Shown here piece after piece: positions 6,632 to 42,837 of a stretch of DNA of 64,000 bases (position 1 is the stretch's first letter; the number at the start of each line of letters is the position of its first letter). The notes under the pieces are model-generated. The model was not told where the DNA came from. It saw only the letters and a list, made by a program, of their open reading frames with translations, and ran no database searches. Location of the stretch: positions 62,001 to 126,000 of the forward strand of contig NZ_JACJQO010000002.1 of the NCBI RefSeq assembly GCF_014696715.1. The letters run 5' to 3'. The translations under genes were made by a program, and so were the position numbers. Source of the DNA: Pseudanabaena sp. FACHB-2040 (GTDB lineage Bacteria > Cyanobacteriota > Cyanobacteriia > Phormidesmidales > Phormidesmidaceae).

Positions 6632-6838
6632 CTAGCTCTGCCTGCGTGTTATCACGCTAATGTGCTCCCCGCCTCTGCCAGTAGGGATGGGGTCGAGCCA
6701 GGAGATGCGATCGCAATAATGCAGCACCGCCATGCGGTTGATCGCCTCAACAACAGCGGCATAGTCGCCCAGCAAAATGTGGCAGAGTTTTTCGGGCTGG
6801 TAAGAAGATAGTTGGAAAGATGAGGCGTCGTCTCCAGC
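6632..6838 (-). pseudogene. Decayed copy of a small conserved protein gene
   Basis: Read on the minus strand, this frame encodes about 68 residues containing LCHILLGDY, INRMAVLHYCDR and a C-terminal GEHISVITRR. It closely matches the intact 78-aa gene at 33248-33484. It has no usable start codon, and an in-frame TAA sits at 6839-6841 where the intact copy has about 95 further bases including the ATG. An internal deletion probably removed the start. Conserved flanking DNA, including a hairpin, continues to about 6958. Confidence 0.7.
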
Positions 6839-6865
6839 TTACCTACGCCAAGTTGGGATGATTTG

Positions 6866-6899
6866 GGGGATTTGAGAAGGTGCAACTTCTCTCTTCCCC
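6866..6899. other. Conserved hairpin upstream of small-gene copy 1
   Basis: GAGAAG (6874-6879), loop GTGCAA, CTTCTC (6886-6891), extended outward by GGGG/CCCC pairing across a short internal loop. The same hairpin with a changed loop sits at 33616-33649 in front of the intact paralogue. It could be a leader structure, a terminator of something lost, or part of a mobile unit. Confidence 0.6.
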
Positions 6900-6996
6900 G
6901 ACCAGAATCATTCTCCGCAAAAAGAGCATACAAGATGCACCAGGGGAGTTCAACCGTATTGTCATATTCCTTGGCGATCACTCTTCTCAATCGCAA

Positions 6997-30557: not shown

Positions 30558-30850
30558 TCAATTATAAAACCGCCAGTACTTACCGGATCCGCCGGATAAT
30601 ACCGGGCATAAAGGAGCTTATCTAGCAGATCCGATACTTAATTTGTAGTTAGCCGTCCAGTTACACCTGTAAGTGTTCTCCAGAGCTTGTGTGTGCGCAT
30701 CCGAGAGTGAAGAGTTTCGTTGGCGATGAGCAATTGCCCAAGTTCTTGAGCAAAGTACTTGGGAACCAGTGTAGAGATAGCCAGTCACGGTAGCTATAAG
30801 TCACTGTAGATAGCCAATGAACATTGGCTTCACCAAATGGACTCTGCAAA
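30558..30850. other. Intergenic region with E1 element
   Basis: Divergent spacer between pyrC and the gene at 30851; contains the dispersed element E1 (30576-30653). Nothing else is recognised. Confidence 0.5.
30576..30653. repeat. Dispersed palindromic element E1
   Basis: About 80 bp. A left imperfect palindrome ends GGATAATACC, then GGAGCTTATCTAGCAGATCC, then ACTTAATTTGTAGTTAG. It matches E2 (31538-31620) and E3 (34170-34252) over the whole length. Confidence 0.75.
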
Positions 30851-31435
30851 ATGTTAAGAGTATTAAAAAGAAGCAGCCAGGTAGTAATACTGCTAACTTC
30901 TCTCAGCATAATTCCGGGAATCTGGTATTTTTGGCACATGGATGGTTGGGCACTCACGCCAGAACGAGCCGCTAGACGAGATAGTTATTGTCAAGATGCC
31001 CCCGTTGTAAAAGCGCAACGAACGACACCAACTACCGCAATTGTGGTTTGCCAGGGCTTGCCAGCATCTCTAGATAGAGGACAAGTTCGCGTTGTGCGTT
31101 GGCCTTGGAGAGTCTGGCGAGCATCCCAAGATGGGTCAAACTTCAGCTCTCAATCTCCTCATATCATTTCAACCGAGTTCGTGGAGTATTCACACGCAGG
31201 ACCCACTCAAAGTGTTCATACTTCACTTATCCTTCTTGGTCAAAGCCACTCCACAGAAGTGGCTGCGGTAGAAGCAGTATTGAGTGATGGTAGAACCTTG
31301 AGAAATGAGGTAACCAATGGCTTATTCGTCTTTGATGCGCCGATCCAAGCTGTCGGTGTCAAAGTGGATGAGTTAAAGGTAATCGGGCGAGATAATCAAA
31401 TTCTTCAGCTTATCGAGGTAAAGCCAAATTATTAA
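30851..31435 (+). CDS. Unknown membrane-anchored protein, cassette-like
   Basis: A 194-aa protein with one N-terminal membrane span (about residues 10-28, VILLTSLSIIPGIWYF) and a beta-rich outer domain with two cysteines. No family is recognised. ATG 30851 is chosen over an upstream TTG. Sixteen bp after its stop lies the left half of an attC-like site (31452), and element E1 lies upstream, so it has the layout of an integron cassette gene. Function is unknown. Confidence 0.65.
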   Translation: MLRVLKRSSQVVILLTSLSIIPGIWYFWHMDGWALTPERAARRDSYCQDAPVVKAQRTTPTTAIVVCQGLPASLDRGQVRVVRWPWRVWRASQDGSNFSSQSPHIISTEFVEYSHAGPTQSVHTSLILLGQSHSTEVAAVEAVLSDGRTLRNEVTNGLFVFDAPIQAVGVKVDELKVIGRDNQILQLIEVKPNY

Positions 31436-31451
31436 GCGTAAAAGAGCAATA

Positions 31452-31530
31452 GGCTAACACGGCGCAGCAGCAGACGGTTTAAAGATCCTGAAATGAGATG
31501 CCAAGTTATCTGCCGCCATTTAACTTCCTA
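31452..31530 (+). other. Decayed attC-like site (attC3)
   Basis: Starts GGCTAACAC and contains GCAGCAGACGG and GATGCCAAGTTATCTGCCGCC, closely matching attC4 at 39615. The right-hand GTT core is lost, and element E2 begins 8 bp beyond. Confidence 0.6.
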
Positions 31531-31537
31531 AAGTTTG

Positions 31538-31620
31538 GGTATTATCTATCAGATCTGCTAGATAATATCGAGCGTGGAGGAGCTTAATTAGCAGATCTAA
31601 TAACTAATTTATAGTTAGAG
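31538..31620. repeat. Dispersed palindromic element E2
   Basis: Left palindrome has perfect 9-bp arms TATTATCTA (31540-31548) and TAGATAATA (31559-31567). Then GGAGGAGCTTAATTAGCAGA and a tail ending TAGTTAG. It lies between the decayed attC3 and the high-GC gene at 31651. Confidence 0.75.
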
Positions 31621-33247: not shown

Positions 33248-33484
33248 CTAGGTGTCAGGCCTTCCGAGCCTGCGGCTCATGACGCTGATGTACTCGCCGC
33301 TTCGACCTGTCGCAATGGGTTTGATCCAGGCGGTTCTGTCGCAGTAGCCCAGCACCTCCATCCGGTTGATTGCCCCCACGACAGCAGAATAGTCGCCCAG
33401 CAAGATATGGCAGAGCTGATCGGGCCGATACGAGGGTAAACGAAACTGCGAGGAGCTGTGCTCCCCTTCGGGTGATTGAAACAT
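33248..33484 (-). CDS. Small conserved protein, intact paralogue
   Basis: A 78-aa protein of unknown function: MFQSPEGEHSSSQF leader, then YRPDQLCHILLGDYSAVVGA, INRMEVLGYCDR and TGRSGEYISVMSRR. The frame is open upstream, but ATG at 33482-33484 gives a start that matches the conserved block. A decayed copy exists at 6632-6838, with shared upstream DNA including a hairpin. Single hydrophobic helix and two cysteines are the only other features. No partner gene. Confidence 0.65.
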   Translation of the reverse strand: MFQSPEGEHSSSQFRLPSYRPDQLCHILLGDYSAVVGAINRMEVLGYCDRTAWIKPIATGRSGEYISVMSRRLGRPDT

Positions 33485-33615
33485 ACGGGTCTCTCCGCTT
33501 TCTAAAGAAAACGGGGAACTATCTAGCGCTCCCAAGTGAAGGTAAAACAGAGTGCTAGAACCTAGAATGATTCCAGGTCTTCGCCAGCTTACCCAGTCTA
33601 AGTTGGGATGACTCA

Positions 33616-33649
33616 GGGGATTTGAGAAGCGCCAACTTCTCTCTTCCCC
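33616..33649. other. Conserved hairpin upstream of small-gene copy 2
   Basis: GAGAAG (33624-33629), loop CGCCAA, CTTCTC (33636-33641), with outer GGGG/CCCC pairing. Sequence and spacing match the hairpin at 6866-6899. Confidence 0.6.
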
Positions 33650-34169
33650 GCCCAGAATCATTCCCCGCACCACTGACAATACTAAATGCAGCCCAAGAGT
33701 TCAACCGTACAGGGTTAACTCTTGTCGGGTTTCCTGCCCCACGCTCACCTCGATTGAGCACATGTGTAAAACAGAAGCATCGCATTGAACGCTGCGGTCT
33801 GCGTTGAAGGCGCTATGTTGCGTTGAATCGCCAATGGGAGAAGATACGCTCTGATTTCATCAGTACCCGTCTCCTTAAGTGATGCTTTTCATAAAACAGA
33901 ATGTAATCTCAAATGCAGCGAACATAAGATTTTTCCGTCTTATGACTGCAATGATTCAGACGAATAACTGCTCTTACTTAATCAAACAAGCATAGTAGCT
34001 GAGATGGTGACATCAATAGATGCTAGATAACTCCTCAATTAGAGGGATTATCCGTCACTTCTGCTGGATAATCCCCCCAATTCTTAGGATTAACTATTAA
34101 ATCTGCTGGATAACATCCTAGATCCGCGGCATTATCCATCAGTTATTCTGTTTAATTTCTTAAGATCTG

Positions 34170-34252
34170 GGTATTATCCCGTAGACCCGACAGATAATAC
34201 CTTGGATAGGGGGCTTAGCAAGCGGATTTGACACTTAATATCTAGTTAGACC
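34170..34252. repeat. Dispersed palindromic element E3
   Basis: Perfect arms GGTATTATC (34170-34178) and GATAATACC (34193-34201), then GGGGGCTTAGCAAGCGGATT, then ACTTAATATCTAGTTAGACC. It ends about 170 bp before the serine hydrolase gene. Its last bases GTTAGAC match the integron R' consensus GTTRRRY, perhaps by chance. Confidence 0.7.
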
Positions 34253-34421
34253 TCTGACTTGTCGGTGAGGCGGTCGTTTGAAGATATTCTGTTTGTATTC
34301 AAGATCAAAGTATTTTTAAAATTATCTGTGGAGCGATCGCAGTCCTATGAAGTTAACTATTTCGAGCAAATGCATTAGGTTCTTCAACACTTTTATGGAA
34401 AGACAGGGAGAAGAATAAGCC

Positions 34422-35735
34422 ATGTCAACTGCAAGCAAGATGGCAGAATATCTTCAAGCCTATCTGGAAACAGGTTTCTTTATGGGGTCTGCCTTGGTTG
34501 CTTGTGCAGGCGAAGTGATATTTCATCAAAGTTACGGTATGGCAAACCTTGAGCATGGGGTCTTAAACACTTCTCAAACTAAGTTCCGTATCGCTTCGCT
34601 CACAAAGCCGTTTACAGCAGCGGCAGTTCTAAAACTTCAGGAACAAGGGTTGCTCGATGTGCGGCACTCCATTTCAGCCTATGTACCTAATTATCCAAAC
34701 GGTGAGCAAATTACTATTCATCACCTGTTGACTAACACCGCAGGCATTCCCAACTTTACGAGCTTTCCTGATGCCGAAAAGAAGCAACCTCTTAAGGTTA
34801 CACTCGACGAATTGATCTCTTGGTTCAGCGATAAACCTTTACATTTTGTGCCCGGAGAGCGCTACCGACCGACCAATTCTGGTTACGTGCTTCTAGCAAA
34901 AATTATCGAGGTTGCTTCTGGTCAATCCTATGCAGATTACTTACGACAACACATTCTTGAGCCTGCAAATATGCTGAATTCAGGCTATGACCAGCAAGAA
35001 TTGGTTTTGCCACACCGAGCATCAGGCTACCTCCTAACTGAAGCAGGATATCGAAATCCGCCTTTTTGGGATATGTCACAGCCCTCTGGAGCCGGAGGAA
35101 TGTACTCAACTACTGAAGATCTTTATAAGTGGGATCAAGCTCTCTATACCGATGCGGTGCTGAATGAACACTCTAGAAATATTATGTTTTCCCCACTCGT
35201 TCGCGTAGGTTCAAGTGAACCGAAAGAATACTGCGGCTATGGCTGGAGCATTGATACTCACTATGGACGCGATCGCCAGATGTGGTATGGAGCCATTCAT
35301 GGTTTTCGTGCAATCTTGTCCCGCTACCCCAGCGAAAAAGCAGTTGTAATTGCATTGAGCAATGTTGGCGATGTTTCGATCGAGAGGATCGAGAATGATT
35401 TAGCTGCGATTTTGTTCAACGAACCGTACAGAATGCCAACTCCACCACAAGCAATCAACCTTGATTCTGCTGTCTATGAAGCTTATGTGGGAGAGTATAG
35501 TGGAGCTTACGAATTTGCTCCAAAGTACAACTTAATCATCACGACCGAATCTAAGCGTATCTTTATGAACTTTACTGGAGAAGACCGCATGGAGATTTTT
35601 CCAGCGTCCTCGACTCAGTTTTTTCTCAAAGTGTTAGATCTCCAACTCACTTTTAAGGTGGATGAAACAGGCAAGGCATCAAATGTAATAATTCATCAGA
35701 ATGGGCGAGATTCTGTGGCAACTAGAATGAATTAG
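34422..35735 (+). CDS. Serine hydrolase of the beta-lactamase/PBP family
   Basis: Predicted active-site-serine hydrolase (class C beta-lactamase or D-aminopeptidase-like fold). The SxxK motif is SLTK in RIASLTKPFTAAAV; the second motif region is YRPTNSGYVLL; the third is IHGFRAIL. About 100 C-terminal residues form an extra beta domain, as in many esterase-like members. No signal peptide is obvious. The RBS is GGGAGAAG. An attC-like site starts 19 bp after the stop codon, so the gene is probably a cassette. The substrate is unknown; beta-lactam resistance should not be assumed. Confidence 0.88.
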   Translation: MSTASKMAEYLQAYLETGFFMGSALVACAGEVIFHQSYGMANLEHGVLNTSQTKFRIASLTKPFTAAAVLKLQEQGLLDVRHSISAYVPNYPNGEQITIHHLLTNTAGIPNFTSFPDAEKKQPLKVTLDELISWFSDKPLHFVPGERYRPTNSGYVLLAKIIEVASGQSYADYLRQHILEPANMLNSGYDQQELVLPHRASGYLLTEAGYRNPPFWDMSQPSGAGGMYSTTEDLYKWDQALYTDAVLNEHSRNIMFSPLVRVGSSEPKEYCGYGWSIDTHYGRDRQMWYGAIHGFRAILSRYPSEKAVVIALSNVGDVSIERIENDLAAILFNEPYRMPTPPQAINLDSAVYEAYVGEYSGAYEFAPKYNLIITTESKRIFMNFTGEDRMEIFPASSTQFFLKVLDLQLTFKVDETGKASNVIIHQNGRDSVATRMN

Positions 35736-35754
35736 AAACTCATCTAGCGGCGAG

Positions 35755-35840
35755 GTCTAACAATCGCGTTGCAGCGGACAGTTGAACATTCCTTTCTATC
35801 GTTCAGGTCGATCTGCTGCCGCTGAAAACGGTCGTTAGGC
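35755..35840 (+). other. attC-like recombination site (attC1)
   Basis: R'' is GTCTAAC (35755-35761), a full match to RYYYAAC; R' is GTTAGGC (35834-35840), a full match to GTTRRRY; the two are complementary except for one pair. Inner arms GTTGCAGCGGAC and CTGCCGCTGAAAAC pair with an unpaired G, and a further TTGAAC/GTTCAG stem lies in the centre. 86 bp, a usual attC length. Confidence 0.82.
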
Positions 35841-35877
35841 AGAAAGTTTCTCTCTAATTACGAGTTAGCCCAATACT

Positions 35878-36615
35878 ATGCGTCGCATGATCTTCATATT
35901 GTTGCTCTTATCTCTTCTACTATATGAAGCTGGCAACCTCACAGGATTCTCGTGGAAGAGATTAGAGTACGTGGAGCAGCGAGAAATCATTGATGAAGCA
36001 ATTCGATTCAGCTACCCAAACATTTATTCTAACCTGAAAGAGTTACAGGTTGACTACTCCAACTTTAAGCCCGAAGTAAGGTATTGGGGCAGTTGGTCTT
36101 GGCAGGTAAAGAACGGCTTTCTCGAGAAACTGTTTGGGTTAACACGGTACCAGGTTCGGATGCCTGAAGAAATCGTAATGGTGAGCGTTGATGGTAAAGC
36201 ACAATTCTCGCGCAGCGACACTGATTGCATCGGAGACAGCGGTTGCCCATTTACACCACCAGATAATCCAGAGCAAGGGGTCGTTGGAACAGTTCAATAC
36301 GGTGGACCAAATTATGAAGTGGTCAACGATTTTTCGGTTGAATGGAGGGGGCGAGATAGAGGCAGCGTGTTCAAGTCTGGGCATTGTTTCTCCGCTTACA
36401 TTAACTCGCCCAAGAACAAGGCATTGGTAGTTAGTCCAAAAGGTGCTGATGCAACTACCATTCGCAAAGGCTACGGCTTCTATTTAGTTGCAATAACAAG
36501 TGATTCCTATGCGCGTATGAGGATTCCCAAGGCCACGTTTGAACAGTCCCAGTTATGCAACATTGAGGCAAGAAAGTCATGGCCCAATGTCGGAGGGTGG
36601 GCATGGAAGAGATAA
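35878..36615 (+). CDS. Unknown exported protein in an integron-like cassette
   Basis: A 245-aa protein with a short hydrophobic N-terminus (MRRMIFILLLLSLLLYEAGN) that acts as signal or anchor. The rest is mixed alpha/beta with four cysteines, including CIGDSGC, and many aromatics. No family is recognised. It lies exactly between two attC-like sites: 37 bp after attC1 and 2 bp before attC2, the standard layout of a one-gene cassette. Function is unknown. Confidence 0.72.
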   Translation: MRRMIFILLLLSLLLYEAGNLTGFSWKRLEYVEQREIIDEAIRFSYPNIYSNLKELQVDYSNFKPEVRYWGSWSWQVKNGFLEKLFGLTRYQVRMPEEIVMVSVDGKAQFSRSDTDCIGDSGCPFTPPDNPEQGVVGTVQYGGPNYEVVNDFSVEWRGRDRGSVFKSGHCFSAYINSPKNKALVVSPKGADATTIRKGYGFYLVAITSDSYARMRIPKATFEQSQLCNIEARKSWPNVGGWAWKR

Positions 36616-36617
36616 CT

Positions 36618-36708
36618 AGCTAACCAATCGTTGCAGCGGAGCACAGAACTGCCGACTTTTTCTTCTCTGGCGTTACAGCGCCGCGTCCGCTGAACTTAAA
36701 CGTTAACA
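36618..36708 (+). other. attC-like recombination site (attC2)
   Basis: Outer cores AGCTAAC (36618-36624) and GTTAACA (36702-36708); inner arms GTTGCAGCGGAGC (about 36631-36643) and GCGTCCGCTGAAC (36683-36695) pair with an extrahelical G as in known attC sites. It shares GTTGCAGCGGA with attC1. 91 bp. Confidence 0.75.
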
Positions 36709-36732
36709 GTTTTGGTATCTGGGCTTAAAGCT

Positions 36733-36769
36733 GAGAGCGGGGTTCAACTTAACTTGCAACCCCGCTCTC
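36733..36769. terminator. Hairpin downstream of katG remnant
   Basis: GAGAGCGGGGTT (36733-36744) and AACCCCGCTCTC (36758-36769). The homologous hairpin behind intact katG (39890-39927) has compensating base changes. Confidence 0.7.
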
Positions 36770-36832
36770 AGTTTGTTGTTAGCTTCTACCTACGTTCGAG
36801 ATGGCCGCAGGTTAGCGTAGCTAACACTCGGC

Positions 36833-37549
<717 letters not shown>

Positions 37550-39614: not shown

Positions 39615-39699
39615 GGCTAACACTTCACGGCAGCAGACGGACGAAAGCCGCTTGTGGGGATGCCAAGCTATCTGCCGCCGCTGCGTTTTGCCGTTATGC
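39615..39699 (+). other. attC-like recombination site (attC4)
   Basis: Outer cores GGCTAAC (39615-39621) and GTTATGC (39693-39699), the latter as in Vibrio-type attC sites. Inner CGGCAGCAGACGG and CTGCCGCCGCTGCG can pair in part. 85 bp; same family as the decayed attC3. Confidence 0.65.
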
Positions 39700-39991
39700 T
39701 TTGGAACAAGCAGCGACGTACAAAGATGTTAGATTTACTCTGCATGCAGCTTCACACAATGTTGTGGGCAGCTATTTTATATATTCGATTTTCTGTGTGC
39801 TTTGAGTTATGTTAACGGTTTCACAGATGGCCACCACTAGGAACTCAATTGCAGCTCTCTAAATAGCTTTGACATCAGGGTCTAAAGCCGAGAGCGGCGT
39901 TTCAAGATAAGTTGAAACGCCGCTCTCGATTTTTCTCTCTAACTTTTACCTACGTTCAAGATTGCCGCAGGTTAACGTAGCTGACACTAGC
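39700..39991. other. Spacer between attC4 and katG
   Basis: Contains the katG hairpin (39890-39927) and, from about 39875, DNA homologous to the stretch following attC2. A second GTTAACG near 39809 resembles the attC2 right core. No gene seen. Confidence 0.5.
39890..39927. terminator. Hairpin downstream of katG
   Basis: Perfect 16-bp stem GAGAGCGGCGTTTCAA (39890-39905), loop GATAAG, and the reverse complement (39912-39927), with T-rich DNA on the + side. It covaries with the hairpin at 36733. Confidence 0.8.

Positions 39992-42837
<2,846 letters not shown>

Follow-up and report, generated by a model that had tools for sequence, protein, structure and literature searches.

Evidence for a chromosomal pseudo-integron with a decayed integrase gene and two cassettes in the cyanobacterium Pseudanabaena sp. 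FACHB-2040

Integrons are listed for Cyanobacteria in several publications (PMC2426708, PMC8618304, PMC9668308), and a model of cyanobacterial attC sites is available from Ghaly et al. 2021 (PMC8352920), with whose sites those described here share the phylum and the integron-type attC. Inactivation of the integrase gene (intI) with retention of the arrays is documented in Xanthomonas (PMC12444791), and in an early survey pseudogenes made up nearly one third of the intI genes (PMC2426708). Integrons and attC sites in cyanobacteria, as well as intI decay with cassette retention, are therefore known already; the contribution here is the corrected anatomy of one locus and the description of the multi-copy, mostly integrase-dead platforms of its family. 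Judging from the literature found, cyanobacterial integrons seem to have received little experimental work so far.

The locus lies in a window of 64,000 nucleotides, the whole stretch of DNA analysed, and is very probably a chromosomal pseudo-integron whose own integrase gene has decayed. Its layout is the textbook arrangement, in which an intI pseudogene (Psi-intI) is followed by attI, a serine-hydrolase cassette with attC1 and an orphan-ORF cassette with attC2. Like the pseudo-integrons already described (PMC12444791, PMC2426708), for which genomes with multiple integrase copies have also been reported, it combines a large deletion, stops and a frameshift in intI with a short, stable array left behind. 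It differs from them in its Leptolyngbya/Nodosilinea-kind cyanobacterial host, in having only two cassettes, and in the presence, elsewhere in the genome, of an intact IntI whose attI is of another type. With the clusters of attC sites lacking an integrase, or CALIN, of IntegronFinder 2.0 (PMC9024848), it shares two tandem attC sites and the lack of an intact integrase gene in the surrounding few kb, and software of this type probably reports the locus as a CALIN. This holds by operational definition, as an intI remnant and no intact IntI gene is found near the array, but not by origin, since attI and the intI remnant mark a former complete integron. An earlier note on this DNA had proposed the layout of an integron or of a CALIN; the integron cassettes stand, while an integrase-free origin does not. 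What appeared to be an integrase-free cassette thus becomes a readable fossil, in which single-base positions can be given for the attI crossover, both cassettes and the right flank.

The array contains attC1 (35755-35840, plus strand, 86 bp) and, as its last site, attC2 (36618-36708, plus strand, 91 bp), which enclose ORF 35878-36615 exactly as the earlier note had described. They were searched for with R1, a covariance model built for this analysis and distinct from the published attc_4.cm, whose 12 training sequences are attC sites from the neighbourhood of integron integrase genes in genomes of the same class; the window sites and the source genome were excluded. These sequences were chosen by a relaxed hand-made attC motif scan, used only for selecting sites beside IntI; a first, too strict scan gave zero matches in the window. 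A covariance-model search had been named as the means of checking the two sites, and with R1 both are significant, attC1 at 59.2 bits (E 2.3e-11) and attC2 at 38.6 bits (E 1.4e-6), each over positions 1-86 of the 86 of the model, the E-values being rough because the calibration was short. The 64-kb window holds exactly three full-length sites on the plus strand, all within 4 kb, of which the highest-scoring is attC3 (39615-39699, plus strand, 65.0 bits, E 1e-12), solitary and downstream of katG; on the minus strand there is a weak R1 reading of attC1. A search of the window with Rfam returned nothing at gathering thresholds and nothing up to E 1.

Both attC1 and attC2 present the R''-L''-loop-L'-R' palindrome, the extrahelical bases and the full match to R1 that characterise attC sites, and they share the arm GTTGCAGCGGA, which had been pointed out before, together with the R'' and R' boxes of attC1 (GTCTAAC and GTTAGGC). 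In attC1 both R boxes and the extrahelical bases are kept, and as free DNA it folds better than shuffled sequences (z about -2.1). The boxes of attC2 are off consensus (R'' AGCTAAC, R' GTTAACA) and its free-DNA fold is no better than that of shuffles (z -0.5 to -0.2), both of which count against the pseudo-integron reading. In the last attC of an array, the final TTRRRY is not the site's own and an off-consensus box is unsurprising. The fold of attC2 would also suit chance hairpins or an unrelated dispersed repeat, an explanation whose probability is nevertheless negligible, as it is refuted by the R1 E-values and opposed by the orientation of the sites, their position directly after ORFs, their covariation and their distribution. 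Within the training set, 35 double-change cells are counted against 12.9 in shuffles and both sides change in 13 of 21 pairs, and pairing falls from 87% to 30-36% when the partners are slid by one base; across 24 sites of the source genome the count is 85 against 27.2, in an alignment fitted to the model. No R1 match at E<=0.001 occurs in five relatives of about 18.7 Mb in total (G001, G021, G036, G045 and G048), which include the only same-genus genome compared (G001, incomplete, 78%). On the level of sequence, attC1 and attC2 are thus confirmed as real integron-type attC sites.

The earlier view that no integrase is in view has to be given up: at 1.5-2 kb to the left of attC1 the window contains an attI region and, beside it, a truncated intI. 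Psi-intI (33722-34013, minus strand), recognised by tblastn with cyanobacterial IntI proteins and by identity to the locus of the intact IntI on contig C8, consists of the N-terminal ~90 codons, with two stops and a frameshift, fused to the last ~14 codons, and the roughly 200 codons deleted between them comprise the catalytic core with the R, H-x-x-R and GH motifs. With 22 cyanobacterial IntI as queries, N-terminal pieces are found at 34106-33879 and 33873-33766 (minus strand) in two frames, with a best E of 1e-20 (L012); the two in-frame stops fall within the integrase part, and translation onward reaches THVLNRGERG, the IntI C-terminus. The N-terminal part is 55% identical to L012 and 56-59% to L014, but only 38% to the C8 IntI, whereas positions 33262-33768 are 82% identical to the last codons and 3' flank of the intact C8 intI. 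As the N-terminus is nearer to IntI of other genomes and the 3' end and flank nearer to C8, the remnant may combine two integrons, and Psi-intI may be a recombinant rather than the product of a simple deletion.

The attI region (attI1, 34020-34248, plus strand), with its crossover point at G34245|TTAGAC, is defined by homology to the intI-attI regions of intact integrons. Matching intI-attI regions exist in three other genomes. In L056 (E 4e-21) and L054 (E 3e-20), the DNA upstream of intI shows about 65% identity to positions 34000-34250, and in both the similarity runs up to the crossover. It ends with ...ATCTAGTTA in the window and with ...ATATAGTTA in L056 and L054 (AGTTA), at the expected G|TTA crossover. 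Compared with a complete integron, the locus has an attI heading the array, with homology up to G|TTA, and two attC-ended cassettes in one orientation; the intI that should adjoin attI intact is truncated and interrupted. A recognisable broken intI beside attI and cassettes, which defines a pseudo-integron, is what is found. This bears on a different history, in which the C8 IntI would have acted in trans on a chance (attG-type) site and produced a CALIN at a locus that never had its own integrase. The 15 solitary attC sites of the source genome mean that off-target insertion may well occur there, and integration at attG sites is reported for E. coli in work cited in PMC12444791, yet the intI remnant and the homologous attI region lie exactly at the positions that a platform requires. 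Off-target insertion is largely refuted by them for attC1 and attC2, making it highly improbable as an account of the array, and is possible for attC3.

Because the attI homology ends at G|TTA, cassette 1 spans 34246-35834, from the attI crossover to the attC1 R' crossover, and cassette 2 spans 35835-36702, from the attC1 to the attC2 crossover. Both lie on the plus strand, facing away from intI, and each attC directly follows its ORF; the hydrolase stops 19 bp before attC1 and ORF 35878-36615 stops 2 bp before attC2, spacings that agree with those given earlier, and the upstream serine hydrolase (34422-35735) is itself a cassette gene. Its product is a beta-lactamase/PBP-like serine hydrolase (Pfam PF00144, E 1.8e-56, plus DUF3471), and as its score of 48.9 falls well short of the 415 set as cut-off for class C beta-lactamases, no resistance is claimed. 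Relatives of the hydrolase are patchily distributed (38 of 380 cyanobacterial genomes at E<=1e-40), the closest, at 60-61% identity, belonging to two other families, and in L174 a homologue with 38% identity also has an attC right behind it. The ORF of cassette 2 (ORF245) encodes 245 aa with a hydrophobic N-terminal stretch; searches of 390 cyanobacterial genomes, of genome_contigs and of plasmids gave no homologue, Pfam, NCBIfam and PHROG gave no match, and its single-sequence fold is uninformative (pLDDT 34.5). A conserved gene order free of cassette variation, which the earlier note held would speak against a cassette, is therefore not seen for ORF245. Orphan genes are the usual content of cassettes.

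To the right of attC2, recognisable non-cassette sequence begins at the attC2 crossover, in the form of a duplicate of the 3' end of katG and its terminator (36705-37054) that is 84% identical to 39862-40212 and presumably derives from katG (39992-42301, minus strand); the homology starts 3 bp past the crossover G36702. The katG duplication was also considered as proof of the insertion point, and this was dropped, since the other katG copy shows no matching left side; the copy is for this reason used only as the right-hand flank. An attC lies to the left of each copy of the duplicated segment, and in the relative G020 an attC also occurs just downstream of katG (L117:1244-1331).

The order of events that we infer starts from an ancestor with the standard layout, in which intI would have lain on the minus strand, with attI at its 5' side and cassettes reading away from it. 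IntI would have put the two cassettes in at G34245|TT, that is, the serine-hydrolase segment 34246-35834 and the orphan-ORF segment 35835-36702. Later, intI would have acquired stops and a frameshift, and the roughly 200 codons of its catalytic core would have been deleted. Both cassettes would now be fixed, barring action in trans by an intact integrase.

Such an integrase had been suggested as something to look for elsewhere in the genome, and one intact IntI is indeed present, a protein of 336 aa on contig C8 that scores 476 bits with NCBIfam TIGR02249 (cut-off 265). It aligns nearly full length to the solved integron integrase of Vibrio cholerae (2a3v, E 1e-94), the alignment covering the R, H-x-x-R, GH and Y motifs and the IntI-specific insert. 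Upstream of the C8 intI there are an attI-like region, a MarR-like gene (L001:2755-3330), an ORF of 150 aa and an attC at C8:185947-186033. Judged by its sequence, this IntI could act in trans on the sites of the window, so that the array, compatibly with its being a pseudo-integron, might still exchange cassettes at attC1, attC2 and attI1. In favour of continuing exchange, the C8 IntI looks intact, attC1 retains its R boxes, its extrahelical bases and 59 bits, and mobilisation of CALIN cassettes in trans is possible according to PMC9668308. Against it, the attI-like region of C8 contains repeats of CCACCTAATCACC and is of a type unlike attI1, and neither a circular product nor a variant array has been seen. 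IntI proteins usually favour their own attI. Exchange in trans is on balance somewhat unlikely.

Across the source genome, R1 gives 28 matches at E<0.05, of which, as counted here, 13 fall in six clusters of 2-3 (neighbours within 4 kb) while the other 15 stand alone. Scattered solitary or paired attC sites (loci L073-L092) are seen on contigs C1, C5, C7, C8, C11, C13, C16, C17, C20, C23, C26, C30, C33 and C38 of this genome (G000), several of them, solitary ones included, standing cassette-like right behind ORFs, among them those of a Rieske protein, an alpha/beta hydrolase and a Schlafen/AlbA-type protein. With the source genome counted, 54 of 59 genomes have attC at E<=0.001 and 26 have an IntI above the cut-off, which, together with published descriptions (PMC8352920, PMC2426708, PMC8618304, PMC9668308), contradicts the statement that few such sites are described in cyanobacteria. 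The attI1-type core pattern has 17 matches in 11 genomes, from one family throughout, against a single match in the reversed control. At five of these 17 platforms a long intI reading is retained (split in one case), and at the other 12 there is a fragment or nothing recognisable, so that loss of intI with attI kept is recurrent here. Integron platforms in this cyanobacterial family therefore appear to be multi-copy and mostly integrase-dead, with attC scattered over the chromosome, and whether one integrase serves many platforms becomes testable. A distributed integron, in which one shared integrase would fill, in trans and genome-wide, many attI platforms without intI as well as solitary attC cassettes, is a doubtful proposal; if true, the gene-capture system of the family would be spread over the genome and not confined to one array.

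Directly downstream of intI lies geneX (33248-33484, minus strand), an ORF of 78 aa without assigned function, of which an 84% identical copy is the downstream neighbour of the intact C8 intI. The two copies differ with a dN/dS of about 0.15, indicating strong purifying selection. The product has a predicted beta-alpha-beta core (pLDDT 81); its 143-aa reading has no Pfam or NCBIfam match, and the fold search gave no PDB match, nothing lying below E 0.6. Copies occur in L060, L177-L205 and L206-L271, the gene being multi-copy in Leptolyngbya/Nodosilinea-type genomes, and it is found directly downstream of intI in L060, L063 and L064 and to the left of six of the 17 attI platforms. An integron-specific role was at first suggested by the copies adjoining intI and by G009, a genome lacking an IntI above the cut-off, where an attC is near five of eight geneX copies. 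It was rejected, as only seven of 66 further loci have an attC nearby; geneX is present in many copies, whose place beside integrons is frequent but not constant. Six copies in G009 (L194, L195, L197, L198, L200 and L201) have in common one junction, at which geneX meets a short 5' remnant of an otherwise deleted intI, and three of the six have an exact attI core. Two of these copies have diverged to a dS of 0.88 with a dN of 0.03 and are therefore old.

Left of the pseudo-integron, the stretch 30586-31618 looks, from its sequence, like tandem or nested integron debris. After ORF 30824-31435 comes a degenerate site, attC0 (31452-31539, plus strand), with a partial R1 match (31473-31516, 19.9 bits) and 75% identity to attC3 over 67 bp. 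It runs into attI-like remnant 2 (31535-31618, plus strand; ...AATTTATAG|TTAG), which is 68% identical to attI1 over 117 bp (E 2e-9) and ends with TTTATAG|TTAG at 31614. Remnant 3 (30586-30652, plus strand; ...AATTTGTAG|TTAG), 74% identical to remnant 2 (E 4e-11), ends with TTTGTAG|TTAG at 30648. A degenerate attC0 and two attI-like stretches suggest the remnants of more than one platform in tandem. The attI fragment behind a cassette, formed by attC0 and remnant 2, resembles the Delta-attI arrangements of mobile integrons (PMC12901181), although the fragments in the window are decayed, chromosomal and unproven; in L069, an attC likewise adjoins an attI core. A further, broken copy of geneX with its flank is present at 6632-6958 of the window.
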